Shown here in pieces: positions 1 through 16,786 of a DNA stretch of 29,223 bases (its first letter is position 1; each line of letters starts with the position of its first letter). The translations under genes and the position numbers were made by a program. Origin of the DNA: Acidobacteriota bacterium. Lineage in GTDB: Bacteria; Acidobacteriota; Terriglobia; Acidiferrales; UBA7541. Under the pieces are notes generated by a model. That model ran no database searches. It was given only the letters and a program-made list of their open reading frames with translations, and was not told the DNA's origin. The DNA is taken from positions 27,493-56,715 of the forward strand of contig PLZZ01000127.1 of the NCBI GenBank assembly GCA_003153585.1, read 5' to 3'.

Positions 1-267
1 CGGAAGGTCCGGATCTCCTATCTTCGAGCTAAACGTATGCTGATGTATCGCATCGCAGATCCCGGCACAGGCTTCAAGTTTTCGGAGCTTGAGCACGCCG
101 CAATTTCGCACATGCCCGACAGTCCCACCGAGCACGATGACATTCGTCGTGAAAAGGGGCTGCGTCCAGGAGGTTTTGGTCTGCTAATGACTAAGGCTAG
201 CGTGGATGAATTGCTCTACAATGAAGCGCAAAACGAAGTCGTCTTCGTGAAATATCTCGATGAATAG
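1..267 (+). CDS. Anti-sigma regulatory factor, HATPase type (RsbW/SpoIIAB-like), 5'-truncated by the window edge
   Basis: The reading frame is open from base 1 with no stop, so the gene starts outside the window; an internal ATG at 37 is not a credible start. The visible C-terminal ~88 residues carry the hallmarks of the GHKL ATPase fold of serine-kinase anti-sigma factors: a 'DPGTGF' N/G1-type box near the front, 'RPGGFGLLMTKASVDEL' as the G2/lid region, and a closing 'YNEAQNEVVFVKYL' strand. In this family the kinase phosphorylates a STAS anti-anti-sigma protein and otherwise sequesters a sigma factor (RsbW, SpoIIAB); some members regulate other outputs. A STAS protein is encoded at 13206-13553, but it is too distant to assume pairing. 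Family assignment is fairly secure; the target is unknown. Confidence 0.8.
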   Translation, partial: RKVRISYLRAKRMLMYRIADPGTGFKFSELEHAAISHMPDSPTEHDDIRREKGLRPGGFGLLMTKASVDELLYNEAQNEVVFVKYLDE

Positions 268-332: not shown

Positions 333-905
333 ATGCCCATGAGACTCCTGGTTGTCACAATCGCATTCATAATCTCCGGTGCGCTGTTATTTTTTACTTT
401 CACCCGATCCTCGACAGAAGCGATCGCGCCAAAGCGGCCGGAGGGCTGGAACCCAAGCGCGATTCGGAGCAGCTTCGAAGGACTTCAGGTTAAAGAAGTT
501 GACCCTACGCATGCCGCACTGATTTTCAATTACGATCTTGAGAACACAACGGATTCTGACTACCGTTTGGCCAACGACCCGAAGATGTTGATTATGGGGC
601 GGCTCAAATCGAGCAGCACTTTGAAAGCTGAAGATTCGATGCAGATTGATAATGCGATTTTTCTCCCAGCTCGAAATCGGGCGCGTATCGCCCTGGAGAT
701 AAGCTATTCTTTTAACTGGCCGACACAGATGTTTCCCGGGCAGGTGGGGCCGCTGACGCAAGAGAAATTCAGGTCGTTCGTTACCGGGAAAGTGGCGGAT
801 TTGCAGGGATTCATCCTGTTCGATCAGGTTACGCATTATCAGATCGAACTTCCGGGCGGTTGGCAAGAGTTGCAACCAGCCACCGCTGCGGCCGGAACCG
901 ATTAA
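333..905 (+). CDS. Membrane-anchored protein of unknown function
   Basis: A 190-residue protein that I do not recognise. Residues ~4-24 (LLVVTIAFIISGALLFFTF) form one hydrophobic segment, an uncleaved signal anchor or signal peptide, so the rest should be periplasmic. The body reads like a beta-rich domain: 'HAALIFNYDLENTTDSDYRL' followed by a stretch on element values and an aromatic 'SYSFNWP' motif. This resembles proteins that handle unpaired extracytoplasmic beta-sandwich domains, but no family can be named. Two in-frame ATGs (333 and 339) are possible and neither has a strong Shine-Dalgarno sequence. It lies between an anti-sigma factor and the PilZ-TonB gene on the same strand. Confidence 0.6.
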   Translation: MPMRLLVVTIAFIISGALLFFTFTRSSTEAIAPKRPEGWNPSAIRSSFEGLQVKEVDPTHAALIFNYDLENTTDSDYRLANDPKMLIMGRLKSSSTLKAEDSMQIDNAIFLPARNRARIALEISYSFNWPTQMFPGQVGPLTQEKFRSFVTGKVADLQGFILFDQVTHYQIELPGGWQELQPATAAAGTD

Positions 906-1003: not shown

Positions 1004-2515
1004 ATGCCAGAAATTCCCGAGCTGATGCAGAATCTCCCGGAACATACGGACCGCCGTACCCATTCGCGCCATCGCATTAGGGCGCTTGCGTACGTTGAGT
1101 TGGGGGAGAACAACGGGGGAATTGTTCTCAATATCAGCGAAGGAGGATTTGGCGTCCGAGCCGCGGAGGCCATACAGGAGGATAGTCTTTCGCGGTTGCG
1201 CTTTCAGATGCAGTACGCCACCCAACCGTTGGAAATGAGCGGCAAGATCGCGTGGACGAGCGAATCGCGGAAAGAAGCGGGTGTGTGCTTCACAGACTTG
1301 CGCGATGAAGCGCTCTCGGAAATCAGGACATGGATTCTTCAGGAAGTATCGCCAGGGCGCTCGCCAAAGCAGTTCCCTGTTGCTCGCCGCTCCTTTGGAG
1401 CAATGGCTGAGAAAAATGAATCCATCTCCGATGAGCTCTCGAGGGGTGAGATTGTTGAGGCTGAGACGCAAGACGACGCCGATCATCAAGTGGCTGGCCC
1501 TTCCATAATTCCAGATTCGAAAAGCAGGTTTTCCGGTCCAATGGCATCGAAAGCGCCCGCCGAAAGGCAGGAGTACGGTGCAACGCTCTTCCCAAAGGCA
1601 GCCAGCACTGCGCCCGCCTCTCGATTGCCGGTCACCGCCTTACCGGCTGTTAATAAACCGGGATCTGTGCCCTCAGTATCGAGAGCGCAAAACGCGCCGG
1701 AAAATTGGATGGATTTTCGAGTTCAGATGGGAAGAGGTTGGATGGTTGCAGCTCTGGTGACTTTTCTTGTAGCTGTTTCGTTTTCCGCGGGAATGGCGGT
1801 AAGGAGAGGCGGTCTAGTCGGACTTAGACCCAACGCGGACACGCCCCCATCCACCAGTGCCCAAACTCAAAATTCAGTTCCCGTTCTCCCGCCCACCCGC
1901 ACGCTCTCGAAACCGCTGCAGATCGATATCGTTGATTCGAGCAATCAACGGTGGACGATTCCTGCAAGCGTGTCGGCTCCTCATTCACCAGGGGGCGGTG
2001 CGAGCAACGGTATCTCGCATGACGCTTCGGAAAATATCGAGACAGCTACTTCCGGCCTTCGGCCGGCGCCGGAACATCAAGACACAGGAGGCGCGTCTGC
2101 CGTCCCTAGCCAGGCGGGTGCGTCGCCGACTCTATTGAGTTTGCCGGAACACTCGGTTAGCGCTTCGGGCTCGGTGGCAATCAGTTCTCAGCGTTCGCTC
2201 GTGGTGCCTGCAGAATCTTCGCAAAGTACATCGCCACCGGGAAAAAATCTTCAGGTCGGACAGTTGGTGAATTTGGTTGACCCACTCTACCCACCCGAGG
2301 CCGAACAGAAGCAGATTGAAGGAACTGTCAGGCTGCACGCGACCATTGGCGTGGATGGATCGATCAAGGACCTTCAGCCGCTGAGCGGCCCCGCATCGCT
2401 CCTGCCGGCAGCGCTCACCGCCGTGCGTGAGTGGCGCTACAACCCTACTTTGCTGAATGGGCAGCCTATTGAGACGCAGGAAGATATCAGCGTCGTTTTT
2501 CGGCTTCCGAATTAG
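1004..2515 (+). CDS. PilZ domain - transmembrane - TonB C-terminal domain fusion protein
   Basis: A 503-residue fusion. Residues ~15-115 form a PilZ c-di-GMP receptor domain with both binding motifs: RxxxR (R18...R22 or R22...R26) and [D/N]xSxxG (N43-S45-G48). A low-complexity linker follows, then one transmembrane helix at ~246-265 (MVAALVTFLVAVSFSAGMAV) ending in RR, then a Pro/Ser/Gln-rich periplasmic spacer to ~415. Residues ~419-503 form a TonB C-terminal domain with the family hallmarks 'YPPEAEQKQIEGTVRL', 'GVDGSIKDL' and 'AVREWRYNP'. The predicted topology puts PilZ in the cytoplasm and TonB_C in the periplasm. The helix lacks the N-terminal position and the His of classical TonB that contacts ExbB/ExbD, so energy transduction is uncertain. 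ATG 1004 is chosen for its Shine-Dalgarno and the PilZ boundary. The domains are clear; the joint function is inferred. Confidence 0.85.
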   Translation: MPEIPELMQNLPEHTDRRTHSRHRIRALAYVELGENNGGIVLNISEGGFGVRAAEAIQEDSLSRLRFQMQYATQPLEMSGKIAWTSESRKEAGVCFTDLRDEALSEIRTWILQEVSPGRSPKQFPVARRSFGAMAEKNESISDELSRGEIVEAETQDDADHQVAGPSIIPDSKSRFSGPMASKAPAERQEYGATLFPKAASTAPASRLPVTALPAVNKPGSVPSVSRAQNAPENWMDFRVQMGRGWMVAALVTFLVAVSFSAGMAVRRGGLVGLRPNADTPPSTSAQTQNSVPVLPPTRTLSKPLQIDIVDSSNQRWTIPASVSAPHSPGGGASNGISHDASENIETATSGLRPAPEHQDTGGASAVPSQAGASPTLLSLPEHSVSASGSVAISSQRSLVVPAESSQSTSPPGKNLQVGQLVNLVDPLYPPEAEQKQIEGTVRLHATIGVDGSIKDLQPLSGPASLLPAALTAVREWRYNPTLLNGQPIETQEDISVVFRLPN

Positions 2516-3324: not shown

Positions 3325-3631
3325 GCCGAAAGCAACCGACTGATTTTATATGGGTTTGGCGAATTGTGTCGAGGATTCGGAACGACCAAGAAAACAGCCA
3401 TTCTAATAAATTCGTAGTGATTTCTCTGCAAACTCGACGTGAATTTCACTCCACTAACCCGCGTGTTGATCAGGAGTTGTCCAGCCGGACCCGAGATTGC
3501 AAGTTCCGGTGATTTGCCCCCGACCGTGTGCTGAGGATTCTGCCGGCTCGGACGTGAACATCCGACTTACGCAGTCTGTCCTTTACCCTTTCGCACAACC
3601 GCATACGACGCATCGACCACACCGTAACAGG
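3325..3631. other. Intergenic region between the tRNA and a PilZ gene
   Basis: About 300 bases without a convincing gene. It holds the tRNA promoter at its left end and a short dyad GTGAA-T-TTCAC at 3439-3449 that could be an operator. The frame of the PilZ protein stays open back to a TTG at 3497, but the upstream residues look non-coding. Confidence 0.5.
3345..3372 (-). promoter_or_regulatory. Sigma-70-like promoter for the CAT-anticodon tRNA
   Basis: On the minus strand a TCGACA -35 (3372-3367) and a TATAAA -10 (3350-3345) are separated by 16 bases. The predicted start is around 3338, about a dozen bases ahead of the mature tRNA 5' end at 3324. Assigned from consensus match and position. 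Confidence 0.55.
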
Positions 3632-4600
3632 ATGCTAATCTTCAAGCTCCCCCTTCCGGAGGCCAGTGTGTCCGCATCCTTGCCGTCGAACGACGGCAGT
3701 GCAGAAAACCGTCGCAGTACTCGAGTCATTCACGCCGTGCCGATCACGATCCGGGGGATCGACGCCCTCGGCCAGGCGTTCGATGAACACACCTCAACCG
3801 TGACGGTAAACTGCAATGGTTGCAAGTACGAGTCGAAGCACTACGTCCCAAAGGGTTCTAAGCTCACTATGGAGATCGGCGGCCGTGACCGCGGGTTGCC
3901 CCCAAGGAAATTTCCCGCCCGAGTCGTCTGGGTCCAGCGGCCGCGCACCTACCGCGAGATTTTCCACATCGCATTGGAGTTCGAAATTCCCGGAAATGTC
4001 TGGGACATCAAATCCCCACCGCCAGATTGGTTCCCACATCCTGATGACGAGGAGTTGACCGTTCCAGTGTATGCGGAGTCAGACGAGCCAGAACCTTTTG
4101 CCGTCCCGGTGTCGGCGCCTCTCGCACGAGAAGCAGACGCAGCAGGTCACATGCAAGCGGCTGCTCACGCCGTTTTAGCCGTCGCTACACCTGCGATGAC
4201 CCCGGACTTTGCCATACCTCAAGCCTATCTTGGTTCTCTGCAGGAGAATCAATCGGAGCTTGACGCCGAGCGGCAAATGTTGAGAGCGACCATAGAAACA
4301 GCAATGACCGAAGACATGGCGCTGTTGCGCCAGCGCCTTGAATCGCATCTTCAGGAGGCCGTGCAGGAGACCGTCAAATCCTTGGCAGATCGTATCGCCG
4401 AGCACGTTCTGAAGGCCGTGGCAGAGCACGCAACCGAACGCACCGCCGCGATTGTTGCTGAGGCCCGCGAGACACGCCAAGCAAATGCCGAGGAGCTGAA
4501 TGCAAAGATTGGTTTGGCGGTGCGGGAAGCTGTGAGCGCTCCACAGAAAAGTCCGCGCAAATCGCCGCCCACTAAGCGCCCGCGTAAATCGCCCAAATAG
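3632..4600 (+). CDS. PilZ-domain protein with long helical C-terminus and basic SPRK-type tail
   Basis: ATG 3632 (322 aa) is chosen; an open extension to TTG 3497 lacks protein-like character. Residues ~25-135 form a PilZ domain: RRSTR (R27xxxR31) is present, but the second motif is TxNxxG (N60...G63) instead of [D/N]xSxxG. The domain ends in 'VWDIKSPPPDW', a signature shared with the stand-alone PilZ proteins at 4779 and 18167. An acidic/Pro linker follows, then ~205-303 is a long Ala/Glu/Arg helical region, probably a coiled coil. Residues 306-322 form a Lys/Arg/Pro tail with KSPRK and RKSPK repeats reminiscent of S/T-P-K-K DNA-binding tails. c-di-GMP binding is doubtful, and the tail's role is inferred. 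It lies tandem with the next PilZ gene. Confidence 0.78.
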   Translation: MLIFKLPLPEASVSASLPSNDGSAENRRSTRVIHAVPITIRGIDALGQAFDEHTSTVTVNCNGCKYESKHYVPKGSKLTMEIGGRDRGLPPRKFPARVVWVQRPRTYREIFHIALEFEIPGNVWDIKSPPPDWFPHPDDEELTVPVYAESDEPEPFAVPVSAPLAREADAAGHMQAAAHAVLAVATPAMTPDFAIPQAYLGSLQENQSELDAERQMLRATIETAMTEDMALLRQRLESHLQEAVQETVKSLADRIAEHVLKAVAEHATERTAAIVAEARETRQANAEELNAKIGLAVREAVSAPQKSPRKSPPTKRPRKSPK

Positions 4601-7457: not shown

Positions 7458-8154
7458 CGTCAACATAGTTACGAAACCGGGTACGGCGGTTCCGAAACTG
7501 CTGATCATAGACGATGATGAATCCGTTCGAAAAGTGATGGGATTCCGATTGAGAGATTCCTACAGCATCATCGACAGTGGCTCCCCTGAAGAAGCGTTGG
7601 CATTGGCGCTGCAATACAAGCCCGATGCAATCTTGCTCGACCTTATGATGCCAAAATATTCCGGCTTCGAAGTCTGCCAGACCCTTTCTTCCCTAAGTTT
7701 CACATCGCACATCCCCATTGTGATCGTTTCCGGAGAATCCAGCGAGCGATACAAATCGCTGTGCGAGAGCATCGGAGCAAAGGGCTTTTTTCAAAAGCCC
7801 GTCAACATCGAGGCTCTGCAAAAAAAACTAGCTAGCCTGATTGTACTCAGTCACGACAAATCCCAGCCTAAACCCCGAGTCCGGTTGAGGGTGATGCTGA
7901 GGCTTCGAGGGATCGACTCGACGGACACGGATTTTGAAATCGTCACGGCTACCGAGAACGTGAGCGCGAACGGCTTTCTGTGTGGATGCTCGGCGCTTGT
8001 GGGGCTGAATTCCATTCTCGAGGTTTCTCTCGCCATGGACGGCGCGCCATCTGCGGGGAAGGCGCGAGTCACACAGGTAGACTGGCCGGGGACCGTGGGT
8101 CAAAGATGCGACTTCGAGTTCCTTGAAAAGCCTGTCGATTGGATTCTGCAATAA
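7429..8154 (+). CDS. REC-PilZ response regulator
   Basis: A 241-residue protein whose ATG lies 29 bases inside the upstream kinase gene, so the two are translationally coupled and very likely cognate. Residues ~22-140 are a receiver domain: acidic triplet DDD (28-30), phospho-accepting D71 in 'ILLDLMMP', T/S switch in 'IVSGES' and K123 in 'FFQKP'. Residues ~148-241 are a PilZ domain with both canonical motifs, R150xxxR154 and N177-S179-G182, ending in 'EKPVDWIL'. Known REC-PilZ proteins combine phosphorylation with c-di-GMP sensing; the output partner is not evident because there is no DNA-binding or enzymatic domain. The second-messenger link is inferred from the motifs. Confidence 0.88.
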   Translation: MPNTLKAENDVNIVTKPGTAVPKLLIIDDDESVRKVMGFRLRDSYSIIDSGSPEEALALALQYKPDAILLDLMMPKYSGFEVCQTLSSLSFTSHIPIVIVSGESSERYKSLCESIGAKGFFQKPVNIEALQKKLASLIVLSHDKSQPKPRVRLRVMLRLRGIDSTDTDFEIVTATENVSANGFLCGCSALVGLNSILEVSLAMDGAPSAGKARVTQVDWPGTVGQRCDFEFLEKPVDWILQ

Positions 8155-9492: not shown

Positions 9493-10725
9493 TCAATCGT
9501 GCGGGCGCGCGGGGTCTGAGTCGTCGATGAAAACTACGCCCACGCCGTTTTGAGTTTTTTCGCGGCCCGCGTCGAAATGAACTACGGTTCCGCGCAAGGA
9601 AAGAATACTGGAGGCCGCGGGATCCCCGGTGGCTTCAATCACCACGCGCACTTCCGACTGCAACTTTGGCCGGTTGTTCAAGCAGAGGTAAGCCCCTTGC
9701 AGACTCAAATCTCGTACAGTAGCTTTCTCCTCGAACCGCTTACCGTCGTCAGATTGTCCACTGACAGTCGCGGTAAAACGTAACCGGCGTCGCTGCCCGC
9801 CTCGTGACTCGCGCATCTCCACATTTATGCCGCGCTCGCTCATGGTGATGGACATTCCCTCGGTGGCCGCCCAGGTAGCGGGGAATTCCTGCCGCGCCGC
9901 GGAAAGGAAGCCATCCACGGTCTTGTCGACTGAATCTGGGTCGTGGTGAAAGAGGACCAGGTTTCTCACTTTCGCTTCACGCGCAATCTTCACACCTTCC
10001 AGCCAGCTCGAATGGCCCCAGCCTTTGCGTTCTGAGGCGAGCTGCTCCGGGGAATATTGAGAGTCGTATACCAACACATCCGCATCCTGAGCGAGCTGCC
10101 GAAGATTTTGGTCAAATTCCGCCACACCCGGCTCATTGTCCGTGGCATAGACCACCGAGCCCCCCGAGGTCTCTACGCGATAGCCCAAGCATCCTTGCGG
10201 GTGGTTCAAAAATCTGGCAGTGATTTGGGTGCCGTTGATTTCCCATTTGTCGCCACCGGTGATTTCATGAAATTCGCGGGCCGCCGTCATGAGGCTAATT
10301 TCCACCGGAAAATACGGTTTGGCGAGCTGCGCTTCAATCACTTGGCGAAGACTGTCAGGCCCCAGATATTTTGACTGGAAACTATAGAGATGGAAGCGAT
10401 TCTGTGCCTGAAAGAAGGGGTTGAAGAACGGAATACCTTGGATGTGGTCCCAGTGGTAATGCGTAACAAGGATGTGGGCATCGATGCCCTGGCCACCGTG
10501 CGCCTTCGTCCAGCGATTCCCCAGCATCCGCAATCCCGTTCCACAGTCCAGAACAAACCGCGTGCCGTCCGGGGCCATTAACTCAAGACAAGGCGTATTG
10601 CCGCCATAGCGCCAGGTATCGCGCTCGAGCGTCGGCGTCGAGCCGCGCACTCCCCAGAAGGTCAGTTTGGCAACGTGGTGGGTCATCGCCGACGCGAATC
10701 TTAACGCCTCCCGCCTGCGCTCCAT
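9493..10725 (-). CDS. Metallo-beta-lactamase-fold hydrolase fused to a C-terminal PilZ domain
   Basis: A 410-residue fusion. Residues ~18-300 are an MBL-fold hydrolase of the PhnP/RNase Z-like branch: 'TFWGVRGSTP', the metal motif HxHxDH (H89, H91, D93, H94 in THYHWDH), H175 in 'LNHPQG', D196 in 'YATDNEPG' and a terminal His pair at 260-261 ('LFHHDPD'). All expected di-metal ligands are present, so it should be catalytically active; the substrate, perhaps a cyclic nucleotide or phosphodiester, is unknown. Residues ~309-402 are a PilZ domain with both motifs (R312xxxR316; D339-S341-G344), suggesting c-di-GMP-controlled activity (inference). Start: M1 (10725) or M14 (10686) just before the MBL domain; neither has a clear ribosome-binding site. 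No membrane segment. Confidence 0.88.
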   Translation of the reverse strand: MERRREALRFASAMTHHVAKLTFWGVRGSTPTLERDTWRYGGNTPCLELMAPDGTRFVLDCGTGLRMLGNRWTKAHGGQGIDAHILVTHYHWDHIQGIPFFNPFFQAQNRFHLYSFQSKYLGPDSLRQVIEAQLAKPYFPVEISLMTAAREFHEITGGDKWEINGTQITARFLNHPQGCLGYRVETSGGSVVYATDNEPGVAEFDQNLRQLAQDADVLVYDSQYSPEQLASERKGWGHSSWLEGVKIAREAKVRNLVLFHHDPDSVDKTVDGFLSAARQEFPATWAATEGMSITMSERGINVEMRESRGGQRRRLRFTATVSGQSDDGKRFEEKATVRDLSLQGAYLCLNNRPKLQSEVRVVIEATGDPAASSILSLRGTVVHFDAGREKTQNGVGVVFIDDSDPARPHD

Positions 10726-15844: not shown

Positions 15845-16786
15845 TCATTTCTTGCCGTATACGCTTTTGTACCACTCCCAGGTGCGCTGTAAACCTTCCT
15901 CGAAATGAACTCGCGGCTCGTAGCCGAGCACTTTACGTGCCAGCGAAATGTCAGCCTGAGAATCGCGGATGTCACCCCCGCGCGGCGGATCGTATTTAGC
16001 CTGAATCTTTTTCCCGGTGATTTTCTCAAGAAGCCTTAGAACTTGATTCAACGTGATGCGGGCCCCGGTGCCGCCGTTAAACACTATTCCGGATGCGCCT
16101 TTGGCTTCGCACGCGCGTAAAGTTTCATCCACGATATTTTCGATAAAGGTGAAATCGCGCGATTGCTCCCCATCTCCGTACACCACCGGGGACTGCCCCT
16201 GTATCACTGCCAGCATGAACCGCGAAAGCACTCCCGAATAATGCGAAGTCGGATCCTGCCGGGGACCGAAGACGTTGAAGTAGCGAACGCAGACATTCTC
16301 GAGGCCATAGACGCGGCCGAAAACCTGCGCGTAGAGTTCGCCGACATATTTTGTGATCCCGTAAGGAGAAATCGGGTTGGGTTGCATGGCCTCGGTTTTC
16401 GGAAGCGTTGGGGTCTCACCATAGGCGGAGGAGGAAGCGGCGTAAACCAAACGGCGCACTTTGGCATCTCGCGCTGCCACCAGGACGTTCAAAGTGCCAT
16501 CAATATTTATGTGGTTCGTCTCGATGGGGTTTTCCACTGAGCGTGGAACCGACGTCCGCGCGGCCAAGTGAATCACGTAATCGGCACCGTGACATGCCGA
16601 CTGCACCGTTGCCAAATCTGTGATGCTGCCTATGCGGAGGTCGATCTTCTCGCGAACATCGCTGAGGTTTGATTCCTTTCCCGCGGAAAGATCGTCCAGC
16701 ACTACCACCTGCTGGCCTTGGCGAACAAGGTCGTCCACGATGTTTGAGCCTATGAATCCGGCGCCACCCGTAACCAGGTAACGCAT
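15845..16786 (-). CDS. NAD-dependent sugar-nucleotide epimerase (extended SDR, GalE/WbpP-like)
   Basis: A 313-residue extended short-chain dehydrogenase. The Rossmann NAD motif GGAGFIG (7-13), the acidic ribose-binding pair 'LDDLSAG' (30-36), the Ser of 'AASSSAYG' (117-123) and catalytic Y142xxxK146 ('PYGITKYVGE') are all present, as is 'GDGEQSRDFTFIEN' before the C-terminal substrate domain. These features fit UDP-hexose or UDP-HexNAc 4-epimerases; the exact sugar cannot be read by eye. It probably supplies the polysaccharide locus on the same strand, although separated from it by a DUF3108 and a PilZ gene. It is divergent from the DUF3108 gene. Confidence 0.88.
   Translation of the reverse strand: MRYLVTGGAGFIGSNIVDDLVRQGQQVVVLDDLSAGKESNLSDVREKIDLRIGSITDLATVQSACHGADYVIHLAARTSVPRSVENPIETNHINIDGTLNVLVAARDAKVRRLVYAASSSAYGETPTLPKTEAMQPNPISPYGITKYVGELYAQVFGRVYGLENVCVRYFNVFGPRQDPTSHYSGVLSRFMLAVIQGQSPVVYGDGEQSRDFTFIENIVDETLRACEAKGASGIVFNGGTGARITLNQVLRLLEKITGKKIQAKYDPPRGGDIRDSQADISLARKVLGYEPRVHFEEGLQRTWEWYKSVYGKK

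Follow-up and report, generated by a model that had tools for sequence, protein, structure and literature searches.

What does a protein do in which a PilZ domain and the C-terminal domain of TonB (TonB_C) are joined by a single membrane helix? PilZ domains are known as cytoplasmic receptors for cyclic diguanylate (c-di-GMP) and TonB arms as energy transducers, and both are found in one chain encoded in a 29,223-nucleotide stretch of an Acidobacteriota genome (assembly GCA_003153585.1, contig PLZZ01000127.1, positions 27,493 to 56,715), here referred to as the window. We report that this PilZ-helix-TonB_C architecture is that of a conserved family in soil acidobacteria and that the gene in the window directly follows one for a small membrane-anchored protein, here referred to as U190. 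We favor, with a probability of about 0.5, the reading that the two proteins form an inside-out effector through which c-di-GMP would act on the cell envelope, either on peptidoglycan or on an outer-membrane partner. The PilZ-TonB_C protein and its parts are located as follows, with the evidence in parentheses.

1004..2515, + strand: PilZ-membrane helix-TonB_C protein, 503 amino acids (open reading frame [ORF], Pfam, homologues, and a one-pair selection test)
1049..1339, + strand: PilZ domain, residues 16-112, with the RxxxR and NxSxxG motifs (Pfam E value, 2.8e-13; alignment columns)
1739..1804, + strand: single membrane helix, residues 246-267, with S259-F-x-[AG]-G263-M-A-x-R-[RK] near-invariant and without SxxxH
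1910..1966, + strand: conserved arm stretch after the helix, residues 303-321, KPLqIEIVD..N.RWtIPA (alignment columns)
2126..2209, + strand: conserved stretch directly before TonB_C, residues 375-402, P..LSLPE...A.GSVAI......vP (alignment columns)
2282..2506, + strand: TonB C-terminal domain, residues 427-501

Both domains of the window protein scored above their Pfam cut-offs, the PilZ domain with 50.5 bits against a curated cut-off of 22.5 and TonB_C with an E value of 2.5e-14. The c-di-GMP receptor motifs of PilZ domains, worded as RxxxR and [D/N]hSxxG in PMC11800159, are both present, as R18..R22 and N43-I-S45-E-G-G48. These results bear out the first-pass annotation, a note made from the sequence alone, which had described a PilZ domain with both motifs and a TonB_C domain in one ORF, connected by a single internal helix. 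In a fold comparison with solved structures, TonB_C gave a clear match and the PilZ domain a weaker one, to c-di-GMP-bound PilZ domains, with the Alg44 PilZ structures 4rt0 and 4rt1 among the top matches. The linkers flanking the helix on both sides are long, of low model confidence, and probably disordered. The arm after the helix is rich in Ser, Pro, and Ala, and the helix core (19 residues) is separated from TonB_C by at least 90 residues in 233 of the 233 homologues described below; the arm is long enough to span the periplasm and is predicted to be flexible. Within this arm, strands are predicted with low confidence at residues 306-310 and 316-320 of the first conserved stretch, while a sequence similar to the second stretch (residues 375-402) is present in some of the more distant paralogues.

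Homologues were taken from two protein searches, one with the window protein (120 listed of 322 matches) and one with divergent paralogues (120 listed of 235), both of which scored only 8000 candidates and favor full-length relatives. Among the 236 distinct listed proteins pooled from these searches, 217 contained one PilZ and one TonB_C domain and 16 contained two PilZ domains and one TonB_C domain, while a TonB_C match was absent in 3; since the models used for scoring were built from the family itself, these counts describe the family and are no test of the exclusivity of the architecture. The database check suggested in the first-pass annotation thus returned both domains in 233 of 236 listed homologues. 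In all of these 233 proteins a hydrophobic helix lies between PilZ and TonB_C, and in 227 there is exactly one, again as first described. Both c-di-GMP motifs were found in 186 of them, RxxxR alone in 44, the second motif alone in 2, and neither in 1. An alignment of the nearer relatives (117 rows, after the partial matches P0034, P0054, P0068, and P0092 had been dropped) revealed that R18, R22, R24, and N43 are invariant and that G48 is present in 116 of the 117 proteins; position 45 is Ser in 79, Gly in 37, and Cys in 1. Near-invariant in the same alignment are the helix motif listed above and parts of the stretches 303-321 and 375-402, and the conserved small residues of the helix suggest, on sequence grounds, helix-helix packing. 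The ratio of nonsynonymous to synonymous substitution rates (dN/dS), obtained from a single pair (the window protein and its relative at locus L040, 71% identical), was 0.03 for TonB_C, 0.12 for PilZ, 0.13 for the helix region, and 0.64 for the first linker, before the helix, so that constraint in this pair is strongest on TonB_C, PilZ, and the helix. A chance or assembly fusion of the two domains is ruled out by the many homologues together with this constraint. The idea that the PilZ domain is a remnant was likewise rejected on the basis of the intact motifs and the one-pair value of 0.12, a verdict that holds for the window protein only and not for members without S45.

At an E value of <=1e-30, a match to the window protein was present in 20 of the order's 95 genomes. 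In a search of 250 genomes of the class with a divergent alignment, every listed match spanning PilZ through TonB_C belonged to the window's own family, a provisional result, and those listed outside it cover the TonB_C side; this search and one other genome search scored at most 5 candidates per genome and listed only part of their matches. The few source names among the listed matches were Candidatus Acidiferrales/Acidoferrales, Acidobacteriia, Acidobacteriota, and Terriglobia, and eight named loci are from acidobacterial metagenome-assembled genomes. The window's own genome, which is ~74% complete, encodes a second PilZ-TonB_C protein of 718 amino acids (G000:C28, L068). Members are numerous among acidobacterial and metagenome sequences, mostly under the plain name "TonB family protein," which conceals the sensor half; three listed database entries (P0102, P0117, and P0335) carry the names of both domains. 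At L174, L175, and L078, PilZ and TonB_C are found in separate ORFs in different frames, which may be frameshifts; these loci were excluded from the evidence, except that L174 and L175 enter the tally of U190 genes given below. Another contig of the own genome (C266) encodes a 523-amino-acid protein (L097:1688-3259) with an N-terminal domain that is PilZ-like by eye, a helix, and TonB_C; Pfam gave no match to this N-terminal domain, and the protein may be another, degenerate form of this architecture. The same contig encodes a protein with a Trypsin_2 protease domain and two TonB_C stretches in one chain (L097:5003-6244).

The gene directly on the 5' side of the PilZ-TonB_C gene was overlooked in the first-pass annotation.

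333..905, + strand: U190, N-terminal membrane helix and beta-sandwich, 190 amino acids (predicted local distance difference test score of the model, 80; conserved adjacency)

No Pfam, NCBIfam, or PHROG family matched U190 above threshold. In the window and at the eight best-scoring other loci of the order search (9 of 9), U190 lies ahead of the PilZ-TonB_C gene; it is absent at the next-best locus, G378 (L055), and at G375 (L075), and is present at G373 (L043); at the G380 locus, the upstream side is cut by the contig start. U190 is retained in L043 and L044 despite neighbors that are otherwise unlike those of the window. A search of the same 95 genomes for U190 itself gave 38 genes, spread over 29 genomes, as tallied by hand (40 rows; in G364, and likewise in G301, one gene was split over two rows). 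Most of these, 27 of 38, stand directly before PilZ-TonB_C as a single, same-strand ORF; 2 precede PilZ and TonB_C in separate ORFs (L174 and L175), 2 a PilZ ORF that is truncated where the contig ends, and 1 a frame-broken copy, with the remainder being domains of longer proteins (3) or lone divergent copies (3). Two of the longer proteins, from two genomes of one genus, are fusions with the U190 domain ahead of Amidase_3, an N-acetylmuramoyl-L-alanine amidase domain, i.e., a peptidoglycan amidase (L186:2021-3325 and L187:2468-3886; E values, 1.2e-52 and 3.3e-53), and the third contains Sel1 repeats. Because of the fusion to Amidase_3, we suggest that U190 is located on the periplasmic side and is linked to peptidoglycan. 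In a count by eye of 17 more distant members paired with U190, all 17 retained RxxxR and 11 the second motif. A 219-amino-acid protein on a 3.1-kb metagenome contig (P0157) joins U190 directly to TonB_C and lacks both PilZ and the PilZ-TonB helix; this is perhaps a deletion or misassembly, and it was excluded from the evidence.

An effector of this kind would require the PilZ domain to be cytoplasmic and TonB_C to be periplasmic, and we infer such an N-in/C-out topology from several sequence features. In the 233 proteins, charged residues make up 26.7% of the linker before the helix, which contains 13 Cys residues, and 15.4% of the arm after it, which contains none, an asymmetry as would be expected for N-in/C-out. 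In addition, the best-scoring TonB_C domain of the own genome outside the PilZ proteins (47% over 102 amino acids) sits on a short protein whose N terminus is of the export type by eye.

In canonical TonB, the helix is N-terminal and carries SxxxH, an important motif, and there is no cytoplasmic domain. The anchor of the window protein is located at residues 246-267, behind the PilZ domain, and SxxxH was found in 0 of the 233 helices, in line with the earlier remark that the helix lacks the His residue of TonB; by eye, the motif is present in two TonB_C proteins of the own genome (contigs C140 and C182). SxxxG occurs in 226 of 233 helices, a count for which there is no chance control. Judged by the position of the helix and by its motif, the protein is best regarded as a PilZ protein and a TonB_C protein, and probably not as a TonB energy transducer. 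The first-pass annotation had suggested that coupling to ExbB/ExbD may have been lost because the helix is internal and lacks His. The second part of this argument stands, and canonical coupling appears doubtful because of the absence of SxxxH, whereas the first part is weak: the general claim that an internal helix means lost coupling was rejected, with GltG, a TonB_C protein of the Myxococcus gliding machinery that bound the ExbB-like protein AglR in a two-hybrid assay (PMC3169522), as the counterexample. As to exbBD, which the annotation had proposed to look for nearby, no MotA/ExbB-family match lies on the window contig; the two found in the incomplete own genome are on C109 and on C51, and TonB_C matches lie close to both (ExbD was not searched for). 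The genome contains 9 Plug-domain matches, 8 of them above cut-off.

In the mechanism that we propose, c-di-GMP made by GGDEF proteins of the host, for which matches were found at 10 places (11 rows) in the own genome, would be bound by the cytoplasmic PilZ domain, and the single helix would pass the change across the inner membrane to the TonB_C arm. The flexible arm would cross the periplasm and present TonB_C, which, together with the co-encoded, membrane-anchored U190 protein, would act on peptidoglycan or an outer-membrane partner, with c-di-GMP altering the place or the tightness of the hold of the arm on this envelope partner. The first-pass annotation had placed the output at an outer-membrane receptor or export system. 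A periplasmic output is retained here, but because U190 is conserved upstream and linked to a peptidoglycan amidase, the likely output shifts toward peptidoglycan or the envelope and away from a TonB-dependent receptor as the sole target. A more specific version, in which a dedicated two-gene system of this acidobacterial family lets c-di-GMP control a periplasm-spanning TonB-type arm without ExbB/ExbD and the arm and U190 act on peptidoglycan or its outer-membrane attachment, is put forward only tentatively. If true, this would provide a direct c-di-GMP route to the cell wall with TonB_C serving as a signal output, and PilZ and TonB_C in one chain plus an amidase-linked partner make a testable case for c-di-GMP reaching the periplasm and cell wall directly.

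Several observations weigh against the inside-out effector. The PilZ part of the predicted structure has low model confidence. Binding of c-di-GMP may be weak or absent in some members, namely, those without S45 or without the second motif, which is missing in 6 of the 17 distant U190-paired proteins. In the one pair, the dN/dS values of the two parts of the arm were 0.25 and 0.46, indicating weaker constraint. Many PilZ-TonB_C paralogues have no upstream U190 (e.g., L055, L068, L075, L080, L084, L085, and L195-L203), among them the second copy in the own genome, L068, and the amidase fusion was seen in two genomes only. Finally, the positive-inside rule gives N-in no support: across the 233 proteins, the content of Lys plus Arg beside the helix favors the N side in 39 and the C side in 88, with both sides equal in 106 (means of 2.42 against 2.70), and an earlier count of the nearer set, from which 15 of 117 rows that failed the pattern were left out, gave a higher C side in 62 of 102 scorable rows.

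Upstream of U190, the window begins within a gene of a two-component system.

1..267, + strand: 3' end of a gene encoding REC and HATPase_c_2 domains

This REC-ATPase gene and a gene for a hybrid histidine kinase precede U190 in four close relatives and on the window's own contig. On the latter, just 5' of the window (L069, ~7461-7489), the REC-ATPase gene matches its relative as two pieces in different frames and may be frame-broken or misassembled. Among the nearby window ORFs that were scanned (U190, PilZ-like, and two-component) and the scanned neighbors at L039, there was no polysaccharide synthesis or export gene; window ORFs beyond ~17 kb were not scanned, and a sugar-nucleotide epimerase-like ORF is located at 15845-16786. 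Just downstream of the PilZ-TonB_C gene is a small, basic, coiled-coil-like ORF (2639-2833, + strand) that is kept in L039 and L041, with its relative in L039 giving only subthreshold Pfam matches, e.g., to Phasin. A PilZ-like ORF (3497-4600, + strand; 21.4 bits against a cut-off of 22.5) follows 1 kb downstream, past two tRNA genes. Further away, a 410-amino-acid protein (9493-10725, - strand) combines a Lactamase_B_2 hydrolase domain of the metallo-beta-lactamase fold with a C-terminal PilZ domain; it also has a sub-cut-off match to a model for cyclic-nucleotide-degrading phosphodiesterases, and a c-di-GMP-controlled hydrolase is possible.

Other explanations of the PilZ-TonB_C protein have to be considered. 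It could be a c-di-GMP-regulated TonB that is energized by ExbB/ExbD and drives outer-membrane uptake, with PilZ as the on/off control. TonB_C is fully TonB-like, the genome has the 9 Plug-domain and 2 MotA/ExbB-family matches noted above, and GltG (PMC3169522) shows that a helix placed behind a cytosolic domain can still bind an ExbB-like protein. Set against this, SxxxH was found in none of the 233 helices while two TonB_C proteins of the same genome have it, and the MotA/ExbB-family matches lie on other contigs with TonB_C matches near them. We consider a regulated TonB unlikely. Signaling could also run from the outside in, with TonB_C and U190 monitoring the envelope or an outer-membrane receptor and PilZ acting as an output or as a scaffold that recruits cytoplasmic machinery. 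PilZ domains can work via protein contacts, and the kinase and REC-ATPase genes directly upstream would fit such a sensor; yet the divergent loci L043 and L044 lack the kinase genes on their upstream side, and both c-di-GMP motifs are kept in most listed members (186 of 233), which makes this direction of signaling quite improbable.

The long, probably disordered linkers and the amidase fusion of U190, which is compatible with a wall-binding role, would also suit a static tether that anchors the inner membrane to peptidoglycan or the outer membrane, in which PilZ merely positions the protein. The constraint on PilZ in the one pair and the retention of its ligand motifs argue against this, and we give a mere tether little chance. 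An arrangement with PilZ and TonB_C on one side of the membrane, in which the helix would be inverted or form a monotopic anchor, appears very improbable: the flanking charges do not favor N-in, but a hydrophobic helix separates the domains in every one of the 233 homologues, the linkers are asymmetric with no Cys after the helix, a TonB_C relative has an export-type start, and the co-encoded U190 has an N-terminal membrane anchor.

The first-pass annotation knew of no characterized example, and no description of the PilZ-TonB_C architecture was found in the titles and abstracts searched, a search that did not cover most of the subscription literature or bioRxiv preprints. The nearest relatives in design come from several different machines. 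Alg44, of the Pseudomonas alginate system, consists of two parts connected by a single membrane helix. These comprise PilZ and a membrane-fusion part, as described in PMC12564702. The window protein matches the Alg44-type order of parts (PilZ, helix, further domain), with ambiguous topology charges; however, the C-terminal part is a membrane-fusion domain in Alg44 and TonB_C here, and the Alg44 gene belongs to the alginate cluster, whereas the PilZ-TonB_C gene is paired with U190. GltG also combines a cytosolic signaling domain with TonB_C: according to PMC3169522, it is predicted to be bitopic, with FHA at residues 26-90 and TonB_C at 570-637, forms the inner-membrane part of an envelope-spanning complex, and bound AglR in a two-hybrid assay, with gltG and aglRQS being located in separate clusters. 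It differs in having FHA in place of PilZ and in belonging to a multigene machine with the AglRQS motor. LapD-type effectors resemble the proposed one in being transmembrane c-di-GMP effectors with a periplasmic output (PMC12564702), but LapD relies on a degenerate EAL domain, and its target is the protease LapG. The TonB of the ExbB/ExbD system is set apart by the internal position of the PilZ-TonB_C helix and its lack of SxxxH. Taken together, these comparisons suggest that the PilZ-TonB_C protein would work most like Alg44 and GltG while being a member of neither system.
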